Of a DNA stretch of 64,000 bases, positions 5,729-16,500 are shown in pieces. The notes below the pieces were generated by a model that saw only the letters and a program-made list of their open reading frames with translations, did not search any database and had not been told where the DNA came from. Within the stretch, counting starts at the first letter, position 1. Every line of letters starts with the position of its first letter. Position numbers and translations under genes: made by a program. Origin of the DNA: Acidocella sp. KAb 2-4 (lineage in GTDB: Bacteria; Pseudomonadota; Alphaproteobacteria; Acetobacterales; Acetobacteraceae); contig NZ_JAJDJU010000008.1 of assembly GCF_020567705.1 (NCBI RefSeq), forward strand, positions 1 through 64,000. Direction: 5' to 3'.

Positions 5729-6883
5729 GTGGCGCGCTACGTGTTCCGGCTGCCGGATATTGGCGAGGGCGTGACCCAGGCCGAACTCGTCGCTTGGCAT
5801 GTGGCCGAGGGCGAGCGCCTGGTTGAGGATCAGCTGATGGCCGAGGTGATGACCGACAAGGCCACCGTGGAGATGACGGCCCCCATCGCCGGCGTGGTGC
5901 TGGCGCTGCATGGCGCGCCGGGGGAGAAGATCGCCGTCGGCGCGGCGCTGGTGGAGCTAGAGGTGGAAGCCGCCCCCGCCGAAACGCCGCCCCGGCCACC
6001 CGCGCCAGCCGCCGCGGCTCATTCCCCAAGCCCTCCGGCGGCCGGCGGCGGCGTATTGGCCTCGCCGGCCACCCGCCACCGTGCCCGCGAACACGGGGTG
6101 GATCTGCGCACCGTGCCGGGGACCGGCCCTGGCGGGCGCATCACCGCCGCCGATCTCGATGCCGTCCTGGCCCGCGCGACGCCGGAACCGGGCATGCGCG
6201 AGGTGAGGATCGTCGGTCTGCGCCGCCAGATCGCCGTGCATATGCAGGAGTCCAAGCGCAACATCCCGCATTTCACCTATGTCGAGGAGGTGGACATGAC
6301 GGCGTTGGAGGCGCTGCGGGCTACGCTCAATGCGGGCCGCGCCACGGACAAGCCGAAGCTAACATTGCTGCCTTTCCTGATGCGCGCCCTGGTAAGCGCG
6401 CTGCCGCGTTTCCCGCAGCTCAACGCCCGCTACGACGGTGAAGCCGGCGTGCTGCGCGTGTTTGAGCCGGTGCATATCGGCGTCGCCACGCAAACCCCGG
6501 CTGGGCTGCTGGTGCCGGTGGTGCGCCACGCCGAACGGCTGGACATTTGGGGCGCGGCGGGCGAGGTGGCGCGTTTGGCCGAGGCCGCGCGCGCGGGCCG
6601 CGCCACGCGCGAGGAGCTGACCGGCTCGACCATCACCCTGAGCAGTTTGGGCGCGCTGGGCGGGCTCGCCGCCACCCCGATCATCAACGCGCCTGAGGTC
6701 GCCGTCATCGCCCCGAACAAGCTCGCGCAGCGCCCCGTGGTACGGGGCGGGCAGATCGTCATCCGCACAATGATGAATCTATCGGCATCCTTCGATCACC
6801 GCGTCATTGACGGATTTGAAGCCGCGAGTTTCATCCAATTGTTGCGGGAAATATTGGAACATCCGGAGGCTTTGGCGGCATGA
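5729..6883 (+). CDS. bkdB: branched-chain 2-oxoacid dehydrogenase E2 (dihydrolipoyl acyltransferase)
   Basis: Core acyltransferase of the complex. Domain order: one lipoyl domain (residues 1-80, lipoyl Lys44 in MTDKATVEM); an Ala/Pro linker; a peripheral-subunit-binding domain (ASPATRHRAREHGVDLRTVPGTGPGGRITAADLD); and the CAT catalytic domain ending with SFDHRVIDG, whose His and Asp are catalytic. At 384 aa with a single lipoyl domain it fits BkdB better than multi-lipoyl AceF. The start is GTG 5729, two bases after the E1-beta stop; no ATG lies near the lipoyl domain start. No E3 (lipoamide dehydrogenase) gene follows, so E3 must come from elsewhere on the genome. Confidence 0.92.
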   Translation: MARYVFRLPDIGEGVTQAELVAWHVAEGERLVEDQLMAEVMTDKATVEMTAPIAGVVLALHGAPGEKIAVGAALVELEVEAAPAETPPRPPAPAAAAHSPSPPAAGGGVLASPATRHRAREHGVDLRTVPGTGPGGRITAADLDAVLARATPEPGMREVRIVGLRRQIAVHMQESKRNIPHFTYVEEVDMTALEALRATLNAGRATDKPKLTLLPFLMRALVSALPRFPQLNARYDGEAGVLRVFEPVHIGVATQTPAGLLVPVVRHAERLDIWGAAGEVARLAEAARAGRATREELTGSTITLSSLGALGGLAATPIINAPEVAVIAPNKLAQRPVVRGGQIVIRTMMNLSASFDHRVIDGFEAASFIQLLREILEHPEALAA

Positions 6884-7012
6884 ATCATATCATCCCGTGC
6901 GCGCCCCATGCGCGATCTGCATGCTGGCATGATCTTCCGCTGGCCGACGGCGTTGGCGCCCGCCGCGGCGGTCCAGGATAATATCGAGCCAACTGGCGAG
7001 GTGAATTTTAGA

Positions 7013-8191
7013 ATGGAGAATGGAAGGGAGCGGCGAAAGGCACTGACATTCATTGTTCTGATCGGCTGCGTCAGTCTGTTTGCCGACATGACCTACGAAG
7101 GCGGGCGCAGTGTCGCGGGGCCGTTTCTGGCTGTTCTCGGCGCCCCGGCGGTGGCGGTGGCCACCGTCGCCGGGTTTGGCGAATTTCTTGGCTATAGCGT
7201 GCGCTATCTCTCAGGCCGCGCAGCCGACCGCAGCGGACGTTACTGGCTGTTGATGGGGATGGGTTACGTGGTCAATCTGCTCTCGGTGCCGATGCTGGCG
7301 CTGGTGAACTCTTGGCCCTTGGCGGCGGCTCTGCTGATCGCGGAGCGCACGGGCCGGGCCGTACGGGCACCGATTCGCGGCGCCATGCTTTCTCACGCCG
7401 CCACCCGCACCGGCGTGGGTTGGGGGTTTGGCCTACACACGGCGCTTGACCAGACAGGCGGCATGTCCGGCCCCTTGCTGGTCGCCCTGCTCATCGGCGC
7501 GGGCAGCGGGTTTCACCATGCCTTCGCGTTACTGGCGCTACCCGCGCTCGCCTCGCTGGCGCTGCTGGCCGCCGCCCGGCAGCGCTATCCCGATCCGCGC
7601 AAGCTTGAGCTGGAGGTAGGTGAAGCCGATATCTCAGCCTGGAGCGGTTTCGGCCCTCCCTTCCGGCGGCTGACCATCGCCGCCGCTCTGGTCGCGGCCG
7701 GGTTTGCCGATTTTGCGCTGATCGGGTTTCATTTTGCCAAAGCGCATACTGTGCCGCTCCCCTGGATACCGGCGCTTTACGCTGTGGCCATGGCGGCGGA
7801 CGGCGTTTTTGCGCTCGCGCTGGGCCGGCTGCTCGACCGGTTTGGCATGGCCATTGCCATGCTGGGGGTTTCGTTCGCCACGCTCGCGGTGCCGCTTGTG
7901 TTCCTGGGCGGCGCGGGTTTGGCGGTGGGCGGCGTGCTGCTCTGGGGCATGGGCATGGCGACACAGGATACGATCTTCCAGGCGATCCTCAGCAGCTTCG
8001 TCGCGCCGGCACAACGCGCGACCGCTTACGGTCTTTTTGATGCGATACGTGGGACGGCATGGCTTGCCGGGAGCGTGGTGCTGGGCATGCTGTACGCCAT
8101 CAGCCTCCCCTTGCTGGTGGCGCTCTCCGTGGCGGTGCAGGTGGCGGCGCTTCCCGTATTGTGGCGCGCCTTGCCGCGAGGCCGGGCGTAA
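7013..8191 (+). CDS. MFS transporter
   Basis: Twelve-helix major facilitator with alternating hydrophobic segments over 392 aa. An MFS loop 2-3 type motif is visible as GRAADRSGRYW (about residues 70-80), preceded by SVRYLS, and the protein opens ALTFIVLIGCVSLFADMTYEGGRS. ATG 7013 is chosen because GAGGTGA lies at SD distance; the open frame extends to 6908 but that extension is not membrane-like. It follows the branched-chain dehydrogenase genes on the same strand after about 130 bases. Substrate is unknown; export of a metabolite or drug is as likely as uptake. Confidence 0.8.
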   Translation: MENGRERRKALTFIVLIGCVSLFADMTYEGGRSVAGPFLAVLGAPAVAVATVAGFGEFLGYSVRYLSGRAADRSGRYWLLMGMGYVVNLLSVPMLALVNSWPLAAALLIAERTGRAVRAPIRGAMLSHAATRTGVGWGFGLHTALDQTGGMSGPLLVALLIGAGSGFHHAFALLALPALASLALLAAARQRYPDPRKLELEVGEADISAWSGFGPPFRRLTIAAALVAAGFADFALIGFHFAKAHTVPLPWIPALYAVAMAADGVFALALGRLLDRFGMAIAMLGVSFATLAVPLVFLGGAGLAVGGVLLWGMGMATQDTIFQAILSSFVAPAQRATAYGLFDAIRGTAWLAGSVVLGMLYAISLPLLVALSVAVQVAALPVLWRALPRGRA

Positions 8192-8310: not shown

Positions 8311-9369
8311 GTGACCAAGCGTAAACGGATCATCCTGGCTGCCTTTGTGGTTCTAGCCGGTGGCGCGGCGGCAGGCGCCGCATATCGCGCCTTCTGGCCA
8401 ACCGCGGCGGCGTCGAGCCTGACGCTTTATGGCAATGTCGATATCCGAGAGGTGAATGCGGCCTTTAACGATAGCGGCCGCATAGAGTCGCTTCTGGTCC
8501 AAGAGGGAGACGCGGTGCGCCAGGGCGAATTGATCGCCCAGCTTGATGACCGACGGTTCGCCGACGCTTTAGCGGCCGCCAATGCCCAGGCAGCCAACCA
8601 GAAGCAGGTGCTGGCGGCGCTGTTGGCGGGGTCGCGGCCCGAGCAAATCGCCCAGGCCAAGGCGCAGATGGACGCGCTGGCCATCGTTTACCGCAACGAC
8701 GAGGCGAACTACCAGCGTTACGCAACCCTGGCCCTGAGCGGCGCCGGCACCCTGCAGCAGCGGGACGACGCGGAGGCGGCGTTTTTGAACGCTGAACGCA
8801 ATTACGAGGCGGCGAAGCAGGCTTACATCCTGGCTGTGAAGGGGCCGCGCGCCGAGGATATCGCCGCCGCCCAGGCCGCCTATGACGCCGCCCAGGCCAG
8901 CGCCGCCCTGGCCGCGCAGGAGTATCAGGACACCAAACTCTACGCCCCCGCCGCTGGGATCGTCGAGGAACGGGTGCAGGAGCCGGGCGACATGACGTCG
9001 CCCGCGACACCTGTTTATGTCATCGCGCTCACCAATCCGCTCTGGGTGCGGGCCTATGTGCCGGAGAGCGATCTCGGGCATGTGAAGCTCGGCATGGCGG
9101 CGGAGATCACCACCGATTCTTATCCGGGGAAGGTGTATCACGGCTGGATTGGCTATCTCTCCCCCACCGCCGAATTCACGCCGAAGAATGTGGAGACACC
9201 GGATCTGCGCGCGCAGTTGGTGTACCAGGTGCGCGTATATGCCTGCGCGCCACAAGGCCAGCTCCGGCTGGGCATGCCGGCGACGGTGACGATCGACCTC
9301 GCCCAGCATGACCGCCAGGGGGCGGCGCGGGGGGGCGGAGGGTGCGGCGGCGATGGCGCCGGGACTTGA
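8311..9369 (+). CDS. ybhG: membrane fusion protein of ABC-2 exporter (YbhG-like, HlyD family)
   Basis: Periplasmic adaptor. It has a single N-terminal transmembrane anchor (IILAAFVVLAGGAAAGAAY), then a split biotinyl-lipoyl-like domain (YGNVDIREVNAAFNDSGRI, YAPAAGIVEERVQEPGDMTSPATP) flanking a long Ala/Gln-rich alpha-helical hairpin (about residues 90-200), then a beta-barrel domain. The start is GTG 8311 with a GGTGGG SD. The C-terminus is Gly-rich and overlaps the start of the ATPase gene. Together with the next three genes it makes a tripartite-type ABC exporter like E. coli YbhGFSR, which has been linked to drug and alkali-cation export. Cargo here is unknown. Confidence 0.85.
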   Translation: MTKRKRIILAAFVVLAGGAAAGAAYRAFWPTAAASSLTLYGNVDIREVNAAFNDSGRIESLLVQEGDAVRQGELIAQLDDRRFADALAAANAQAANQKQVLAALLAGSRPEQIAQAKAQMDALAIVYRNDEANYQRYATLALSGAGTLQQRDDAEAAFLNAERNYEAAKQAYILAVKGPRAEDIAAAQAAYDAAQASAALAAQEYQDTKLYAPAAGIVEERVQEPGDMTSPATPVYVIALTNPLWVRAYVPESDLGHVKLGMAAEITTDSYPGKVYHGWIGYLSPTAEFTPKNVETPDLRAQLVYQVRVYACAPQGQLRLGMPATVTIDLAQHDRQGAARGGGGCGGDGAGT

Positions 9370-11128
9370 GCCGGGGGCGGCCATCGGCAAGCCTCTGGTG
9401 ATTGCCGGGCTCACCCGGCGGTTCCGCGCTGGCAAGCGCCTCGTTACCGCGCTTGACGGGGTTAGTGCGGAAACCTCGGCCGGGCTTGTGACCGGGCTGA
9501 TCGGCCCCGATGGCGCGGGCAAGACCACGCTGATGCGCCTGATCGCCGGGCTGCTGCGCGCCGATGCCGGGTCGGTCCGGGTCTTCGGTACCGATGTGCG
9601 CGCCGATCCGCTGGCCGTGCAGGGCATGCTCTCCTACATGCCGCAGCGCTTCGGCCTTTACGAAGATTTGACCGTACAGGAAAACCTCGATCTGTATGCC
9701 GATCTGCAGGGCGTCGCCACCGCGGCGCGGCCTGAGCGATACCGCGAATTGCTGCACATGACCGGGCTTGCCCCGTTCACCGCCCGGCTGGCGGGCCGGC
9801 TTTCGGGCGGCATGAAGCAGAAGCTGGGCCTCGCCTGCACGCTCATTCGCGCGCCCCGGCTGCTGCTGCTCGACGAGCCGACCGTCGGGGTAGATCCGGT
9901 GTCCCGCCGCGAGTTGTGGGAGATCGTCGACCACCTCGTGCGCAAGGCGGGGATGAGCGTGCTGCTCTCCACCGCCTATCTCGACGAGGCGGAGCGCTGC
10001 GACGAGGTGCTGCTGCTGCATGAGGGCCAGTTGATCGGGGCGGGACGGCCAGGCGGGTTCACCCAGGCCATGGCGGGGCGCAGCTTTCATTTCCGCCTGC
10101 CGGGGCGCTCGAAGCGGGCCTTGCAGGCCGCCCTGGCAACGGTCCAGGGGGTGACGGACGCGGTGATTCAGGGCGAGGCGGTGCGTGTGGTGCTGGAGCC
10201 AGGGATGGCGCCTGAGGCGGTGCAGCTCCCAGGTTTTTCGGGGCTCACCATCACCCCGGTGCCCCCCCGCTTCGAGGACCGCTTCGTCGATCTGTTGCGG
10301 GCCAGATCCGGCGCGCGGGGCGGCATCGTCCCCGTGGCGGAGGCCGCGCAGGCGGGAACGGCCGAAACGGTGATCGAGGTCAGCAACCTGGTCAAACGCT
10401 TCGGCGGCTTTGCCGCGGTGGATGGCATCAGCTTCAGCGTGCGCCGGGGCGAGATTTTCGGCCTGCTGGGCGCCAATGGGGCGGGGAAATCCACCACCTT
10501 CCGCATGCTCTGCGGGTTGCTGCCGGCGAGCAGCGGGCGTTTGCAGGTCGACGGCTTCGACCTGCACCATGCCGCCGCCGTGGCGCGCGGGCGGCTGGGC
10601 TACATGGCCCAGAAATTCTCGCTTTATGGTGAACTGAGCGTGGCGCAGAATCTGCGCTTCTTCGCCGCCGCCTATGGACTGACCGGGGCACGCCGCGCGG
10701 CGCGGCTGGATTGGGCGCTGCGCGAGTTCGAACTGGGGCCGCGCGCCGATGTCACCAGCCGCGACCTGCCGCTCGGCTTCAAGCAGCGCATGGCGCTGGC
10801 CTGCGCGCTGATGCACGAACCGGATGTGCTGTTCCTCGACGAGCCGACATCGGGCGTGGACCCTCTGGCGCGGCGCGAATTCTGGCGGCGCATCAACGCC
10901 CTGGCTGAAAGCGGCGTGACCGTGCTGGTGACCACGCATTTCATGGAGGAGGCTGAATATTGTGACCGCCTGGTGATCATGGCGCAGGGCAGGATATTGG
11001 CCACGGGCACCTCGGAAGAACTGAAGGCCGCGACCCGCAGCGCCAGCCTGCCCGAGCCGACCATGGAAGACGCCTTCATCGCCCTGATCATGGCGGATAA
11101 CGCGAAAACCGTGGAGGCGGCGGCATGA
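9353..11128 (+). CDS. ybhF: ABC exporter ATPase with two fused nucleotide-binding domains (YbhF-like)
   Basis: One polypeptide with two ATPase domains. Domain 1 has Walker A GPDGAGKTT, signature LSGGMKQK and Walker B LLLLDEPTVGVDP. Domain 2 has Walker A GANGAGKST, a degenerate signature LPLGFKQRM and Walker B VLFLDEPTSGVDP. The same asymmetry (canonical LSGG in the first half, LPLGFKQ in the second) is typical of YbhF-type proteins, implying that only one composite site hydrolyses normally. I take ATG 9353, which has GGAGG at SD distance, giving 591 aa and a 17-base overlap with ybhG; ATG 9308 is the alternative. The stop overlaps the next ATG (ATGA). A large open frame on the opposite strand is an antisense shadow. 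Confidence 0.9.
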   Translation: MAPGLEPGAAIGKPLVIAGLTRRFRAGKRLVTALDGVSAETSAGLVTGLIGPDGAGKTTLMRLIAGLLRADAGSVRVFGTDVRADPLAVQGMLSYMPQRFGLYEDLTVQENLDLYADLQGVATAARPERYRELLHMTGLAPFTARLAGRLSGGMKQKLGLACTLIRAPRLLLLDEPTVGVDPVSRRELWEIVDHLVRKAGMSVLLSTAYLDEAERCDEVLLLHEGQLIGAGRPGGFTQAMAGRSFHFRLPGRSKRALQAALATVQGVTDAVIQGEAVRVVLEPGMAPEAVQLPGFSGLTITPVPPRFEDRFVDLLRARSGARGGIVPVAEAAQAGTAETVIEVSNLVKRFGGFAAVDGISFSVRRGEIFGLLGANGAGKSTTFRMLCGLLPASSGRLQVDGFDLHHAAAVARGRLGYMAQKFSLYGELSVAQNLRFFAAAYGLTGARRAARLDWALREFELGPRADVTSRDLPLGFKQRMALACALMHEPDVLFLDEPTSGVDPLARREFWRRINALAESGVTVLVTTHFMEEAEYCDRLVIMAQGRILATGTSEELKAATRSASLPEPTMEDAFIALIMADNAKTVEAAA

Positions 11129-12237
11129 ACGAGCGCGCGATGCGGCTGCGCGGACTGATCCGCAAGGAGAGCCTGCAAATCCTGCGGGACCCGTCTTCCA
11201 TTGCCATCGCCTTCATTCTGCCCGCGGTATTGCTGTTGCTGTTCGGTTTCGGCGTCTCGCTCGATGCGCGGCATGTCACGCTTGGCCTGGTGGTTGAGCA
11301 GCCAAGCGCCGCGGCGGCCAGCCTCACCGCGCAATTTCGCCAATCCCCCTATTTCGTGCCGCAGGAATTTTCCAATGCTGGGACGGCGCAAACGGCGCTC
11401 GCGGATGGAAGGATCGAGGGCTTCGTCTGGCTGCGCGCCAATTTCGCCCGCCAACTCAGCGCCGGCCATGATCCGGCCATCGGGCTATTCGTCAATGGCA
11501 CAGATGCCAATAATGCCCGGATCATCGAAAACTACGTGCAACAGAGCTGGACGATCTGGGGCGCGCAGCAGACGGGGAGCGCCAACCCGGCGCCGATCGC
11601 CGTGCAGCCGCGCATCTGGTTCAACCCGGCGGTGCGCAGCCGTGATTACCTGGTTCCGGGGCTCATCGCGGTGATCATGACGCTGACCGGCGCGCTGCTC
11701 ACCGCGCTGGTCATCGCCCGCGAGTGGGAGCGCGGCACGATGGAGGCGCTGATGGTCACGAAGATCAGTATGCATGAGATCCTGATCTCGAAACTCATCC
11801 CTTATTTTCTGCTCGGCATGGGCGGCATGGTGGTGTCCGTATTGATCGCGGTAACATTGTTCGGCGTGCCGTTGCGGGGTTCGCCACTCGTGCTGGGGCT
11901 GGCCGCCTCACTGTTCATGCTCGCCTCGCTCGGCATGGGGCTGGTGATCTCAACCGTCGCCAAAAATCAGTTTGTCGCCGGGCAGATCGCCATCATCACA
12001 ACCTTCCTCCCGGCTTTCATCCTCTCGGGATTCATCTTCGATATTTCCAGCATGCCACCGCCCATCCAGTTGGTGACGCATATCGTCGCGGCACGCTATT
12101 TCGTCTCCATTCTGCAAACGCTATTCCTGGCGGGCACGGTGTGGTCGGTGGTGTTGCCCAATCTGTTCGCCCTGGCTGTCATGGCGGCGGTGTTTCTTGG
12201 GGTCGCCCGTCTGGTGGCGCGCAAGCGGTTGGATTGA
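11125..12237 (+). CDS. ybhS: ABC-2 type permease (YbhS-like)
   Basis: Integral membrane subunit of the exporter. It has one N-terminal helix (about residues 20-42, SIAIAFILPAVLLLLFGFG), a large extracytoplasmic domain (about 45-175) and five C-terminal helices, the standard ABC-2 layout. IRKESLQILRDPSS at the start and ALVIAREWERGTMEALMVTKISMHEILISKLIPYF mid-protein are family hallmarks. The start overlaps the ybhF stop by four bases and the stop is four bases before ybhR, so the subunits are translated in series. With YbhR it probably forms a heterodimeric pore. Confidence 0.9.
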   Translation: MNERAMRLRGLIRKESLQILRDPSSIAIAFILPAVLLLLFGFGVSLDARHVTLGLVVEQPSAAAASLTAQFRQSPYFVPQEFSNAGTAQTALADGRIEGFVWLRANFARQLSAGHDPAIGLFVNGTDANNARIIENYVQQSWTIWGAQQTGSANPAPIAVQPRIWFNPAVRSRDYLVPGLIAVIMTLTGALLTALVIAREWERGTMEALMVTKISMHEILISKLIPYFLLGMGGMVVSVLIAVTLFGVPLRGSPLVLGLAASLFMLASLGMGLVISTVAKNQFVAGQIAIITTFLPAFILSGFIFDISSMPPPIQLVTHIVAARYFVSILQTLFLAGTVWSVVLPNLFALAVMAAVFLGVARLVARKRLD

Positions 12238-12241
12238 TCTG

Positions 12242-13351
12242 ATGCTGGCTCGTCTCCTCGCCCTGGTGATCAAGGAGTTTCTCGCCATTCTGCGCGACGG
12301 TAAAAGCCGCGCGGTGCTGATTGGCCCGCCGCTGATCCAACTCATCGTGTTCGGTTACGCGGCCAGCTTCGACCTCAACCACGTGCCATTCGCCGTGTAT
12401 AACCAGGATCATTCCGCCATCTCGCGCGATCTGGTGGCGGATTTCGCGGGATCACGGGCGTTTCAGGAGGTGGCGGTCCTGCATGGCCCCGAGCGGATCA
12501 GGGCACTGATCGATTCCCGCGAGGTCGAGATGGTGCTCGATATCGATCCGCGCTTCTCGCGCAATCTGCTGACCAACCAGCCCGCGCCCGTGCAGATCAT
12601 CGTCGATGGCCGGAATTCGAACACCGCTTTGCTGATTTTGGGTTATGCCAACAGCGTCATTGCCGATGCCAGTGCGGCCTGGGCGGCCCGACATGGCGCC
12701 GCGGAGCCCCCCGCGCGGCTGGAGCCGCATGCCTTGTTCAACCCGAATCTCGATTCCCATTGGTTCATCATCCCTGGCATTGTTGCCCTGCTGACGCAGA
12801 TCGTGACGCTGCTGGTCGTCGGCCTGTCCGTGGCGCGCGAACGGGAGGCGGGAACCTTCGATCAGATCCTGGTGACGCCCCTGCGCCCGCTCGATATCCT
12901 GCTGGGCAAGAGCCTGCCGGGGTTGATCATCGGCTTGGCGGAAGGCACGGTCATCATCCTCGCCACCGTGTTCTGGTTTGGCGTGCCGCTCAATGGCGGA
13001 TTATTGCAGCTCTACACGGGGTTATTCCTGTTTATCGCCGCGGTCACCGGTATCGGGCTGATGATCTCCTCCCTTGCCACGACACAGCAGCAAGCCCTGC
13101 TCGGCGCGTTCATGTTCATGGTGCCTTCAATCATCCTCTCCGGCTTCGCCACGCCCATCGCCAATATGCCCGCGCCGGTTCAGGCTCTCACCCTGGTCAA
13201 CCCGATGCGATATGTGCTGGTCGTGATCCGCCGCTGCTTTCTGGAGCAGCCGAGTTTTTCGTCTCTTTCACTCGATTACGCCGCCATGGCCGCGCTCGCC
13301 TTGTGCAGCCTAACCGCCGCCGCATGGCTCTTTCGCAAGCGCGTGGTTTGA
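12242..13351 (+). CDS. ybhR: ABC-2 type permease (YbhR-like)
   Basis: Second membrane subunit of the exporter, 369 aa. It has the same architecture as YbhS: an N-terminal helix after VIKEFLAILRDGKSRAVLIGPPLIQLIVFGYA, a periplasmic domain, then a block of five helices beginning HWFIIPGIVALLTQIVTLLVVGLSVARERE. The REREAGTFDQILVTPLRPLDILLGK motif is the coupling region that contacts the ATPase. ATG 12242 is used because the longer frame from 12197 lies inside ybhS. It is the last gene of the four-gene operon. No outer-membrane channel gene accompanies it, so a shared TolC-type protein would be needed. Confidence 0.9.
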   Translation: MLARLLALVIKEFLAILRDGKSRAVLIGPPLIQLIVFGYAASFDLNHVPFAVYNQDHSAISRDLVADFAGSRAFQEVAVLHGPERIRALIDSREVEMVLDIDPRFSRNLLTNQPAPVQIIVDGRNSNTALLILGYANSVIADASAAWAARHGAAEPPARLEPHALFNPNLDSHWFIIPGIVALLTQIVTLLVVGLSVAREREAGTFDQILVTPLRPLDILLGKSLPGLIIGLAEGTVIILATVFWFGVPLNGGLLQLYTGLFLFIAAVTGIGLMISSLATTQQQALLGAFMFMVPSIILSGFATPIANMPAPVQALTLVNPMRYVLVVIRRCFLEQPSFSSLSLDYAAMAALALCSLTAAAWLFRKRVV

Positions 13352-13525
13352 GAAATTGATGGCGCTGGCGGAGTGGCCGCGCGAATCAATAACTATATTG
13401 GATTAGTTTAATAAGAATAATGAATTATTTATGTGCTTAAACCTGCTGTAAGCTCGTTAACGGTAGAAAAGCGCCGCTACGCTCCTGTCCGTCCGGGGCC
13501 GGCGATCAAAGTAAGGAAATGCACA
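13352..13525 (+). promoter_or_regulatory. A/T-rich upstream region of the DoxDA gene set
   Basis: About 170 bases, strongly A/T-rich between 13385 and 13440 against a high-GC background. It should hold the promoter for the next three genes, and possibly the end of the ybh transcript. Several -10-like sequences (TATATT, TTATTTATG) occur but no unique -35/-10 pair can be chosen. AAGGA at 13513-13517 is the SD of the downstream gene. Confidence 0.4.
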
Positions 13526-14347
13526 ATGTCACAGAATGAGACTCATGGCCGGGCCGCAAACCGTCGGGACTTGTTGCGCGGGGCTGGTCTGTCGCTTGGC
13601 GCGGTTGGGCTTGCCGCCGCTTCGGCACGGTCAAGCCAGGCGGCGGAGACGGGCTCTTCCGATCTGATCGCAGGCACAGGGGCCACGTTGGCGGCGCTGA
13701 CCAAACAACTCGCGGCCCTGCCGCGCCGCCGCCAGTTCAGCACCGTGCCGATGATTCTCACCGAGCCGGCGCAGTGGGATAGCGAGGCTTTAAACGCTGT
13801 TCTCGCGTATCGCGGCGGCCCCAAGCAGGTTTGGGACAACACCGATCTCGCCGGTCCCTGGCTCAACCTGATGCGCAATTCGCTCAATGTCGAAATCTAT
13901 GCCTGGAAGCATCCTGACTTTCTAATTGTCTCGGCGACACATGCCACCGCTCATCTCGCGCTTTATCAGCAGGCGATCTGGGACAAATACAAGCTCACCG
14001 CGATCACCGGCGGAAAATTCGCGTCCAATACGCTGATCGATGTTCCGCCAGCCGCCAAGGGCAGCGTGTCGGATATCCAGAATCCGGCCGGCCCGTTCTC
14101 TCCGGCCGCTAACAGCATCACGGTATTGCAGCAGCGAGGCGTGGTGTTCGTCGCTTGCCATAATGCCATATGGGAATTCAGCGGGGCGCTGCTGAAAGCT
14201 GGTAATAATCCGGATGGACTCTCACACGAGGCCCTGGCCGCTGAATTGACCAACAACCTGATTCCGGGCGCTATTCTGAGCCCCGGCACTGTCGGCACGA
14301 TTCCCGAATTACAGCGCGCCGGATTCCATTATGCCGTTGCGGCGTGA
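13526..14347 (+). CDS. Tat-exported DsrE-like protein
   Basis: A 273-aa protein with a twin-arginine signal (NRRDLLRGAGLSLGAVG, about residues 11-27) and Ala-rich cleavage region, so it is exported folded. The C-terminal half looks like the DsrE/DsrF sulfurtransferase-type fold: a conserved-style cysteine in GVVFVACHNAIWEF, followed by IPGAILSPGTVGTIPELQRAGFHYA, close to the family ending (valine-rich strand, pG.g.i.elQ..Gy.Y). In known DsrE proteins that cysteine carries persulfide. ATG 13526 has an AAGGA SD. The stop overlaps the next frame. Placed ahead of a periplasmic binding protein and DoxDA, a role in periplasmic sulfur-compound handling is inferred. Family assignment is by eye only. 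Confidence 0.62.
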   Translation: MSQNETHGRAANRRDLLRGAGLSLGAVGLAAASARSSQAAETGSSDLIAGTGATLAALTKQLAALPRRRQFSTVPMILTEPAQWDSEALNAVLAYRGGPKQVWDNTDLAGPWLNLMRNSLNVEIYAWKHPDFLIVSATHATAHLALYQQAIWDKYKLTAITGGKFASNTLIDVPPAAKGSVSDIQNPAGPFSPAANSITVLQQRGVVFVACHNAIWEFSGALLKAGNNPDGLSHEALAAELTNNLIPGAILSPGTVGTIPELQRAGFHYAVAA

Positions 14348-14370
14348 TTCTCGTTGAAAGATGGCGTTTC

Positions 14371-15363
14371 ATGATCAGGACCTCGATGAAAGGCTTCAGG
14401 GCGCTTCTGGCTCTGGCATTGCTTTCGGCGGTGCCGCTTTCCGCCGGCGCGCAGACCAAAGCGCCCCTCGATAACAGCCAGGTGTTTCCGCCCTGGCAGC
14501 ACGGCGCGAATAATGACGCGCTGAACAAGGGCTTCAACTTCACGGTTCCCGAAGTTGATAACATGGTGGATTTCCACGGCGATTTGTCGAATCCAAAACT
14601 GGTTCTTTATGTCGGTGGCAATTACTATTTTGCCATGGCGCCCCTGGTTGCGGCGTTTGAGGCAGCCAATCCGCAGTACAAGGGGCGTATATTTTATGTG
14701 ACCATCCCGCCTGGAATGTTGGTACAGGTCATGCAGAAAGGCGGGACTTTCACATCCGGCAACATGACTTTCACGGTGAAGCCGGATGCTTATTTCGCCG
14801 GGTTGAAGAAGGTGCAAGCGCTGATCGATAGCGGCGTTTTGAGCGCGCCGGCGGTGCCCTATGTGACCAATGATCTAACCATCATGGTCCCGAAAGGTAA
14901 CCCCGCACACATCCAGAGCTTGGCCGATCTTGGCAAGCCTGGCGTCAGGCTCGTCATGCCCAATCCAGCCTATGAGGGAATCGCCAGACAGATCGAAGCC
15001 GCGCTGCGCAAAGCGGGCGGGGATGCGCTGGAGACTCAGGTTTATCAGACCGGCGTGACGAACGGGACCACGATTTTGACGCATATTCATCACCGGCAAA
15101 CCCCGCTATTTTTGATGCAGGGCTTGGCGGATGCGGGTGTCACCTGGAAATCCGAAGCGATCTTTCAGGAGGAAATCGGCAACCCGATTAGCGATGTTCC
15201 CATTCCCGCGGCCGATAATGCCACAGCTATTTACGCGGGCGCCGTTGTGAAGGGAGCGGCGCATCCTGACGCCGCCAAGGCATGGCTGTCGTTCATACAC
15301 TCGCCCACCGCCCTGGCCATCTTCGAACATTACGGCTTTAAGCCATATACGGGACAGTCTTAA
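14371..15363 (+). CDS. periplasmic solute-binding protein (oxyanion-type)
   Basis: 330-aa exported binding protein. It has an N-terminal signal peptide (ALLALALLSAVPLSAGA, cleavage before QT) and a two-lobed fold with TNDLTIMVPKGNPAHIQSLADLGKPGVRLVMPNPAYEG. That stretch is the hinge pattern of ModA-like binding proteins for tetrahedral oxyanions. ATG 14371 is preferred; GTG 14344 overlaps the previous stop, and ATG 14386 is also possible. No ABC permease or ATPase is adjacent, so it may serve as a receptor or delivery protein instead of an importer subunit. It sits between a DsrE-like protein and DoxDA, so thiosulfate or a related sulfur oxyanion is a candidate ligand; molybdate is the main alternative. 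Confidence 0.7.
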   Translation: MIRTSMKGFRALLALALLSAVPLSAGAQTKAPLDNSQVFPPWQHGANNDALNKGFNFTVPEVDNMVDFHGDLSNPKLVLYVGGNYYFAMAPLVAAFEAANPQYKGRIFYVTIPPGMLVQVMQKGGTFTSGNMTFTVKPDAYFAGLKKVQALIDSGVLSAPAVPYVTNDLTIMVPKGNPAHIQSLADLGKPGVRLVMPNPAYEGIARQIEAALRKAGGDALETQVYQTGVTNGTTILTHIHHRQTPLFLMQGLADAGVTWKSEAIFQEEIGNPISDVPIPAADNATAIYAGAVVKGAAHPDAAKAWLSFIHSPTALAIFEHYGFKPYTGQS

Positions 15364-15396
15364 GCCTGCGCGCTCAACATAAAAAAGGTTAGCTGA

Positions 15397-16500
15397 ATGT
15401 CTACGCCATTCATGGAGCCGGCAGAAGTTGCTCCCTCCAGCAAAAGCGGCTCCATCGACAATTCCGGCTGGCGCAATGCCGCGATCGGGCTGCTCGCGGT
15501 GCGCTTTATCCAGGGGTTCATTTATTGGGGCGGCGGATCACGGCGCTTCATCTACGGCCCGCAGAAACTCAACCCGCATGGGCACTGGATGGCCTATAAA
15601 TTCCAGACGGCCATGCCCGGCGCGCTGCTCGGCACAGACCATGTCATCGCTTATCTGCTCAACCATTTCGTGCTGCTCTACGCCAGCGTGATCATCTTCA
15701 GCGCCGTTGAACTGATCTCGGGGATGATGCTGATCTCGGGCTTGTTCACGCGGGCGGCGGCTGTGGTGACAATCGGGCTTTCCATCTCCCTGATGCTGAT
15801 GTTTGGCTGGCAAGGGGCAACCTGTATCGACGAATGGACGATGGCGGCGGCCAATCTTGGCATGGGCGCCGCGCTCGCTTTGGTCGGCAGCGGCGCTTAT
15901 TCGCTGGACAACGCCCTGCTGCGGGCCAACCCCGCACTTGCCGACAAGGCGTGGTTCCGCTGGCTCGGCGGCAGCTTGCCGCTCCCGCTCCAGGCGGGCG
16001 CGTACCGCAATCTGGCCCTTGCCTTGTTCGCGTTCACGGTGGCGTTCAATGTCGGCACCTACAGTTACTATCGCGGCTCGGTGGTGACCCCATTCCATAG
16101 CGGCCCGACCAGCCCCACCATTCACAGCTATGCGCTGAGCAACGGCGTGTTGACGCCGGATGGCAGGATCAGCTTCCATGCCTATCTTAACGCAGGAACA
16201 CCGGAGGAGCCTGCCCACATCGTAGAGGCAGCGCTGCTGCAAAATGGCAATCTCGTGGAAAGCTGGGATACCGCGGCGCTGACCAACCTTCCGAAAACCG
16301 CCTTCAAGAACGATTTCCCCTATCAGCAATTCCGGGCGGGGCCATATGGAATCGTCAGCGGCATGGGCGCGGCGGCCACCATCGCCCTGCCATCGGTTCT
16401 GTCAAACCATCCGGCACTGACCGGCAATGGCTACAGCCTGAGGCTCACATCGGTGAATGGACGGGTCTTCACCATGCCGCTTACGCTCACCACGCCATAA
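15397..16500 (+). CDS. doxDA: thiosulfate:quinone oxidoreductase, fused DoxD-DoxA
   Basis: Membrane enzyme that oxidises thiosulfate to tetrathionate and passes electrons to quinone. The N-terminal part (about residues 25-175) is a DoxD-type four-helix domain: AAIGLLAVRFIQGFIYWGGGSRR, YASVIIFSAVELISGMMLISGLF and MLMFGWQGATCIDEWTMAAANLGMG. A further helix (about 205-222) leads into a periplasmic DoxA-like beta domain (about 230-367). In Acidianus the two are separate subunits; a fused DoxDA is described in Acidithiobacillus, as here. At 367 aa the length fits the fusion. SD is AAAAAAGG-type upstream of ATG 15397. It is the last gene of the three-gene set and a sign of an acidophilic sulfur-oxidising lifestyle. 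Confidence 0.85.
   Translation: MSTPFMEPAEVAPSSKSGSIDNSGWRNAAIGLLAVRFIQGFIYWGGGSRRFIYGPQKLNPHGHWMAYKFQTAMPGALLGTDHVIAYLLNHFVLLYASVIIFSAVELISGMMLISGLFTRAAAVVTIGLSISLMLMFGWQGATCIDEWTMAAANLGMGAALALVGSGAYSLDNALLRANPALADKAWFRWLGGSLPLPLQAGAYRNLALALFAFTVAFNVGTYSYYRGSVVTPFHSGPTSPTIHSYALSNGVLTPDGRISFHAYLNAGTPEEPAHIVEAALLQNGNLVESWDTAALTNLPKTAFKNDFPYQQFRAGPYGIVSGMGAAATIALPSVLSNHPALTGNGYSLRLTSVNGRVFTMPLTLTTP

Follow-up and report, generated by a model that had tools for sequence, protein, structure and literature searches.

Here we describe a three-gene cluster, tsd-sbp-doxDA, in a stretch of 64,000 nucleotides from Acidocella sp. KAb 2-4 (contig NZ_JAJDJU010000008.1, positions 1 to 64,000; hereafter the window). 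The cluster encodes a thiosulfate dehydrogenase (TSD) with a twin-arginine (Tat) leader motif, an oxyanion-type solute-binding protein (SBP) and a fused DoxDA thiosulfate:quinone oxidoreductase (TQO). In related bacteria, TSD and SBP stand beside either DoxDA or the cytochrome TsdA, and no TSD locus has both. TSD is predicted to have the fold of the DsrE sulfur carriers, and one cysteine is invariant in each of TSD and DoxDA. We consider it probable that the products constitute a periplasmic tetrathionate-forming module, in which thiosulfate is presented by the SBP and the DsrE-fold TSD to an oxidase linked either to quinone or to cytochrome.

The three proteins of the cluster

The first gene, tsd (13526..14347, + strand, ATG at 13526, stop codon included), encodes a protein of 273 aa that matches the NCBIfam thiosulfate dehydrogenase model NF052225 with 398 bits (cut-off 300) over model positions 1-258 of 259. 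A genome search found this one TSD and one DoxD, and the closest TSDs on the tree are those of Acidocella aromatica and of an Acidocella metagenome-assembled genome. An initial annotation of the window had proposed a Tat-exported protein carrying GVVFVACHNA, and both elements are present: the leader contains the twin-arginine motif RRDLL (a motif reading, not the output of a signal-peptide predictor), and GVVFVACHNA contains the sole cysteine of the protein, Cys211 (C211, codon 14156-14158), followed by His212 and Asn213. In 104/116 relatives a motif of the form RRx(hydrophobic)(hydrophobic) precedes the domain by at most 60 aa, and 11 of the remaining 12 retain the arginine pair. Cys211 and His212 are each conserved in 117/117 TSDs and Asn213 in 116/117, and in 72/117 Cys211 is the only cysteine of the aligned part. 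The invariant Cys211 may be the cysteine that takes up sulfur or thiosulfate in a DsrE-type sulfur carrier.

The assignment of the DsrE fold comes from a confident structure prediction, not a solved structure. The AlphaFold2 model of TSD, built from 86 sequences (pLDDT 93.8, pTM 0.91), finds its best VIA-align match in 2pd2 (106/108 residues, 1.3 Å, Z 13.0, 26% identity). The top ten of the 50 matches listed span Z 13.0-8.4 and the next stands at Z 5.3. Five of the ten chains are named DsrE, DsrE/DsrF-like, DsrEFH or TusBCD (Z 8.4-8.8 for the DsrE, DsrEFH and TusBCD entries), and the other five (ST0148, a designed cage, MTH1491, YchN and BT1422) we take to be DsrE-like. Foldseek also ranks ST0148 (2pd2) first, at E 1.5e-3, with no match at E 0.001 or better. 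The 2pd2 match covers model residues 60-233, with 106 residues aligned of 174 spanned, which implies that the core contains an insertion; an N-terminal extension precedes it. The model puts Cys211 (model residue 172) where a strand ends and a helix is about to begin, presumably the position of the active-site cysteine of DsrE as well.

Sequence searches gave a different picture from the model. No Pfam DsrE profile matches the window TSD up to E 1; PF02635 and PF13686 have no match in the window genome, although control queries matched; phmmer and profile searches against the PDB returned no DsrE protein, and neither did the C-terminal 78 aa of TSD used as query. As no profile matches above cut-off, TSD is filed by its fold and not as a Pfam DsrE member. 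The earlier label "DsrE-like", proposed together with a DsrE/DsrF profile search and structure prediction as its check, is therefore borne out by the model, which has a DsrE core, but not by the profiles, which came back empty. The fold is as the initial annotation proposed, in a family already known as thiosulfate dehydrogenase; no mention of it for TSD was found in the open-licence literature searched.

The second gene, sbp (14371..15363, + strand, ATG at 14371), encodes a protein of 330 aa belonging to Pfam SBP_bac_11 (171 bits, above cut-off). Its leader peptide was judged by eye, and it contains no cysteine. None of the importer-type models for sulfate (49.4 bits, cut-off 155.5), thiosulfate (CysP; 39.3 bits, cut-off 308) and molybdate (ModA; 32.4 bits, cut-off 62.5) reaches its cut-off, and the earlier description "ModA-like" is loose, since the sulfate and CysP models outscore ModA and all three fall short. 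The accompanying statement that this protein lacks an ABC permease and ATPase agrees with the flanks: no importer permease or ATPase is present among the seven flanking proteins, the part of the genome scanned for importers, and the nearby ABC genes are of the efflux type. Two further SBP_bac_11 proteins are encoded in the window genome (G000:C34:96552-97208 and G000:C14:46160-46879).

The third gene, doxDA (15397..16500, + strand, ATG at 15397), encodes a single chain of 367 aa with DoxD (PF04173, 86.2 bits, cut-off 22.7) and DoxA (PF07680, 31.4 bits, cut-off 27) domains, in agreement with its earlier identification as DoxDA. It misses the equivalog cut-off of NF041179 (TQO large subunit DoxD; 70.6 vs 300 bits), so only the broader name DoxDA is used here. 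Its sole cysteine, Cys143 (C143, codon 15823-15825), lies in the motif FGWQGATCIDEWTM and is invariant in 22/22 DoxDA proteins, and the motif recurs in 13/13 further DoxDA stretches. Together with Cys211 of TSD, it makes up the whole cysteine content of the three proteins, two residues in all. In the DoxDA model (pLDDT 81.5, pTM 0.72), DoxD forms the membrane part and DoxA a beta-sandwich, and Cys143 is placed in a loop between two hydrophobic helices. Structure comparison of the DoxA half (best VIA Z 9.5, no Foldseek match at E 0.001) says little, as this half matches common beta-sandwiches.

Partners of TSD in other bacteria

Stretches of the window TSD were used as queries to collect TSD loci, up to a limit of 80, a set biased to near relatives. 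Independently of this search, TSD was found in 38/299 genomes of a family sample and 6/398 of a phylum sample, the window genome being counted in each. In loci L001-L030 the sequence did not reach far enough to count partners, and for most of them longer stretches were used instead. Partners were counted on either strand within 4.0 and 4.5 kb for the 80 loci, and within 4.6 kb for a tree set of 117 distinct TSDs, from which duplicate, short or TSD-less entries were excluded. The TSD alignment (A1) comprises the window protein and 85 of the other 92 non-redundant TSDs, the DoxDA alignment (A2) all 21 listed proteins, and the binding-protein alignment (A3) the window protein and 42 of 64 listed.

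The binding protein is the most regular neighbour of TSD. Of the 80 loci, 76 extend 500 bases or more downstream of TSD; SBP is the next gene, on the same strand, in 66 of these. In the tree set it adjoins TSD in 87/110 assessable loci. Co-occurrence of the genes, which the initial annotation had put forward for checking, is thus conserved. Gene order links the binding protein with DoxDA and with TSD, the DsrE-fold protein, and not with an importer.

Beside this pair stands one of two oxidases. Among the 59 of the 80 loci with at least 4 kb downstream, DoxDA occurs in 8, a TsdA-type cytochrome in 38, neither in 13 and both in none. In the tree set, 20 TSDs have DoxDA, 51 TsdA, 29 neither and none both, and the other 17 carry too little downstream sequence to be given a state. 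DoxDA, earlier taken as the enzyme of the trio, is therefore one such partner (20/100 loci), but the TsdA-type cytochrome is the commoner one (51/100). A representative of this cytochrome matches 5lo9 with 305 bits and 4wqc (titled thiosulfate dehydrogenase) with 195 bits. Two CxxCH motifs and an extra Cys and Met are present in 53/53 aligned proteins of this type (matches below 200 bits and two duplicate loci being excluded), and we assume that the extra cysteine is a haem ligand. In the window genome, a TsdA protein query gave only a 23-bit broken match; PF21342 gave no match, but neither did its control query anywhere, and the result carries no information.

The two partners have been exchanged repeatedly. 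The tree of the 71 TSDs with a partner requires at least 11 partner changes (200 shuffles: mean 17.5, lowest 13), of which at least 7 are left after branches with support below 95 are collapsed. No account of this exchange around TSD and SBP was found in the open-licence literature searched. Genome-wide, 12 of 43 TSD genomes have DoxDA, 22 a TsdA homologue (E up to 1e-15), 1 both and 10 neither; six of these ten form one distant clade that also lacks SBP at the locus. The exclusivity of the two partners in these 43 genomes gives a Fisher p of 6e-4, and the occurrence of DoxDA in 11/38 TSD genomes against 12/261 others of the family sample gives 1.5e-5, shared ancestry being ignored in both tests. 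That DoxDA and TsdA exclude each other beside TSD suggests a single function served by two outlets. TSD and TsdA lie side by side in 51 of the 100 assessable loci, which suggests that they are partners and not alternatives.

SBP and TsdA are encoded as a single open reading frame (ORF) in 16/80 loci (e.g. L067:8605-10482), giving proteins of about 600-650 aa that adjoin TSD. The 16 fusion loci and L048, which is cut by a contig end, make up one clade of 17, starred on the tree, with planctomycete titles. That the long planctomycete protein might be two fused binding proteins was ruled out, its second half being TsdA-like. On the DoxDA side, 12 genomes of the family sample have DoxDA and no TSD, and 8 of these keep the same binding protein with DoxDA; at the other four loci (L190-L193, of which L191 spans only 3 kb and L193 has a broken frame) no binding protein was seen. 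One of the eight (L189) has a different leader-peptide protein (6387-7046, - strand) between DoxDA and SBP. It scores 22.2 bits for PF02635 (cut-off 22.7) and is perhaps another DsrE protein in place of TSD. Given the SBP-TsdA fusions and neighbours and the SBP genes with DoxDA lacking TSD, SBP is found with either terminal oxidase, usually in the company of a DsrE-type protein.

These arrangements also bear on whether the SBP is an ordinary importer component, that is, a sulfate, thiosulfate or molybdate binding protein that came to lie in the operon. Binding proteins for these ions are the named proteins nearest to it, but the seven flanking proteins scanned include no importer components, and the protein adjoins TSD, is fused to TsdA and accompanies DoxDA in TSD-less genomes; we regard this origin as highly improbable.

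Several loci depart from the common arrangements. At some loci, for example L042-L045, L072, L098 and L099, TSD and SBP have neither partner near, and ORFs with haem motifs lie nearby. A further cytochrome c gene (cluster c3) is present in 16/80 loci, the two members scanned being PdsA-like, and a COX1-type gene (cluster c6, one member scanned) in 8/80. SBP and DoxDA without TSD occur at L181-L187, in seven family genomes, with a DUF3576 gene upstream in 3/3 loci scanned (L181, L182 and L185). Two genomes have two TSD copies (G153 with L137, G039 with L150), one copy lacking SBP, DoxDA or TsdA nearby. A distant TSD clade from one genus (L111-L116) has 39-45% identity to the window TSD and perhaps another function.

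A proposed route to tetrathionate

In the proposed module, the exported binding protein would capture thiosulfate or a related sulfur oxyanion and present it to TSD, whose Cys211 would hold the thiosulfate covalently as Cys-S-S-SO3. A second thiosulfate would then displace the Cys211 adduct, releasing tetrathionate, and membrane-bound DoxDA, with Cys143, would transfer the electrons to the quinone pool. Related bacteria have the dihaem cytochrome TsdA in place of DoxDA, and there the electrons would go to c-type cytochromes. DsrE3A of Metallosphaera cuprina is reported to form a Cys-S-thiosulfonate with tetrathionate (PMC4175335), and this precedent together with the two invariant cysteines makes a thiol relay from SBP through Cys211 of TSD to the oxidase the simplest reading. 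We infer from this scheme that the three proteins would make contact and that Cys143 would take part from the periplasmic side. For TSD itself, we tentatively suggest that it could be an exported DsrE-fold carrier or condensing subunit for thiosulfate and not a stand-alone dehydrogenase, plugging with SBP onto DoxDA or TsdA as its electron outlets.

The biochemistry of the Acidithiobacillus (At.) ferrooxidans protein AFE_0042, identified as thiosulfate dehydrogenase according to a citation in Wang 2019 (PMC6335251), can be read in more than one way. The purified protein is reported to oxidise thiosulfate to tetrathionate by itself and to reduce neither ubiquinone nor horse cytochrome c (PMC6335251). 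The first result would be expected if TSD and DoxDA or TsdA were independent oxidases for different acceptors, with the SBP only concentrating thiosulfate and with no complex and no relay, and so would the occurrence of SBP with DoxDA lacking TSD, and the clade L111-L116, whose TSD has no SBP, DoxDA or TsdA at the locus and whose six genomes have no DoxDA or TsdA. The failure to reduce either acceptor argues against such independence, as do the existence of the SBP-TsdA fusion and the absence of any locus with both partners among 117 TSDs, which redundancy alone does not predict. We consider independent enzymes unlikely, though they deserve more weight than the order of action discussed next.

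DsrE3A, the closest biochemical precedent, is reported to react with tetrathionate and not with thiosulfate itself (PMC4175335), so TSD may act after the oxidase, taking a thiosulfate group from the tetrathionate made by DoxDA or TsdA and handing it on. The DsrE fold of the TSD model would suit such a carrier, as would the sub-threshold DsrE protein between DoxDA and SBP at L189, but AFE_0042 is reported to form tetrathionate (PMC6335251), and this order of events seems quite improbable.

Other observations also weigh against the proposed module. The reaction of DsrE3A with tetrathionate and not thiosulfate is one, and the activity of AFE_0042 alone implies that partners may not be needed. Neither DoxDA nor TsdA lies within 4.6 kb at 29/100 assessable TSD loci, and genome-wide, at E 1e-15, neither is found in 10/43 TSD genomes; both occur in one genome (G169), with DoxDA adjoining TSD and TsdA about 16 kb away. 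No SBP adjoins 23/110 TSDs, TSD can stand directly next to DoxDA (L085) or TsdA (L056) without SBP between, and SBP occurs with DoxDA but without TSD in 8/12 TSD-less DoxDA genomes. The DoxDA loop with Cys143 has pLDDT below 50, and a cytoplasmic orientation is described for archaeal TQO (PMC4175335), at odds with a periplasmic Cys143.

The combination of the DsrE fold, one invariant cysteine and the choice between DoxDA and TsdA gives TSD a concrete, testable mechanism and acceptor. The orphan binding protein would become part of an oxidase rather than of a transporter, and DoxDA and TsdA, thought to be alternatives to TSD, might be its electron outlets.

The Acidocella locus and known systems

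The three ORFs lie on the + strand with intergenic gaps of 23 and 33 bases, behind an A/T-rich intergenic region (13352..13525, + strand, 174 bases). G+C falls to 0.43-0.45 in scanning windows within 13325-13549, compared with about 0.6 around them, in line with the initial description of three close-set genes behind an A/T-rich stretch. A promoter scan found no sigma-70-like site on the + strand of 13352-13525, and promoter and terminator scans around the trio scored no better than shuffles. Directly upstream is an ordinary ABC-2 efflux gene set (8311-13351; HlyD, a doubled ATPase and two ABC2 permeases). An MFS gene also lies on the upstream side, and the trio is followed downstream by tRNA-Glu, recJ and a TonB-like gene; no rhodanese is present among the seven flanking proteins scanned.

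The initial annotation knew of no description of such a trio as a system, a view that does not stand. In At. ferrooxidans, the consecutive genes AFE_0042-0044 encode a Tat protein, a putative periplasmic solute-binding protein and DoxDA; their log2 ratios, -1.5, -2.2 and -2.3 respectively, denote higher expression on sulfur (Quatrini 2009, PMC2754497), and tsd, sbp and doxDA are named as one cluster in the legend of Fig. 6 of Wang 2019 (PMC6335251). With the same three gene kinds and the NF052225 match of 398 bits, the window trio is a further example of this cluster, already described in bacteria that oxidise iron and sulfur. It differs from the At. ferrooxidans cluster in that the window genome has a single TSD and no rhodanese among the flanking proteins scanned. 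The gene order and strand of the window trio are found in Acidithiobacillus ferruginosus (L082), where two tsd-sbp-doxDA trios face each other (L082:8001-16783). Relative to the TSD of NF052225 (Kikumoto 2013, via citation), the window protein matches nearly the whole model, and its activity is a prediction.

The best named sequence relatives of the window binding protein, by likeness, are Sbp, CysP and SubI, from which it differs in falling far below the family cut-offs, in having no adjoining importer and in being tied to oxidoreductases. DoxDA-type TQO and TsdA are both reported to make tetrathionate from thiosulfate, with different acceptors (PMC4175335, PMC6335251; further background in PMC10859504 and PMC10427800). 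TsdA, with this same reported product, stands in DoxDA's place beside TSD and SBP, whereas in the window genome it is represented only by the 23-bit broken match. DsrEFH, TusBCD and DsrE3A share with the TSD model the fold, the position of the cysteine between a strand and the helix that follows it, and the sulfur-oxyanion context. TSD is set apart from these carriers by about 60 extra N-terminal residues, the insertion in the core, the lack of a PF02635 or PF13686 match and its predicted Tat export. DsrE-TusA-Rhd relays are described in the cytoplasm; the fold of TSD, if true, would place a DsrE-fold sulfur protein in the periplasm.

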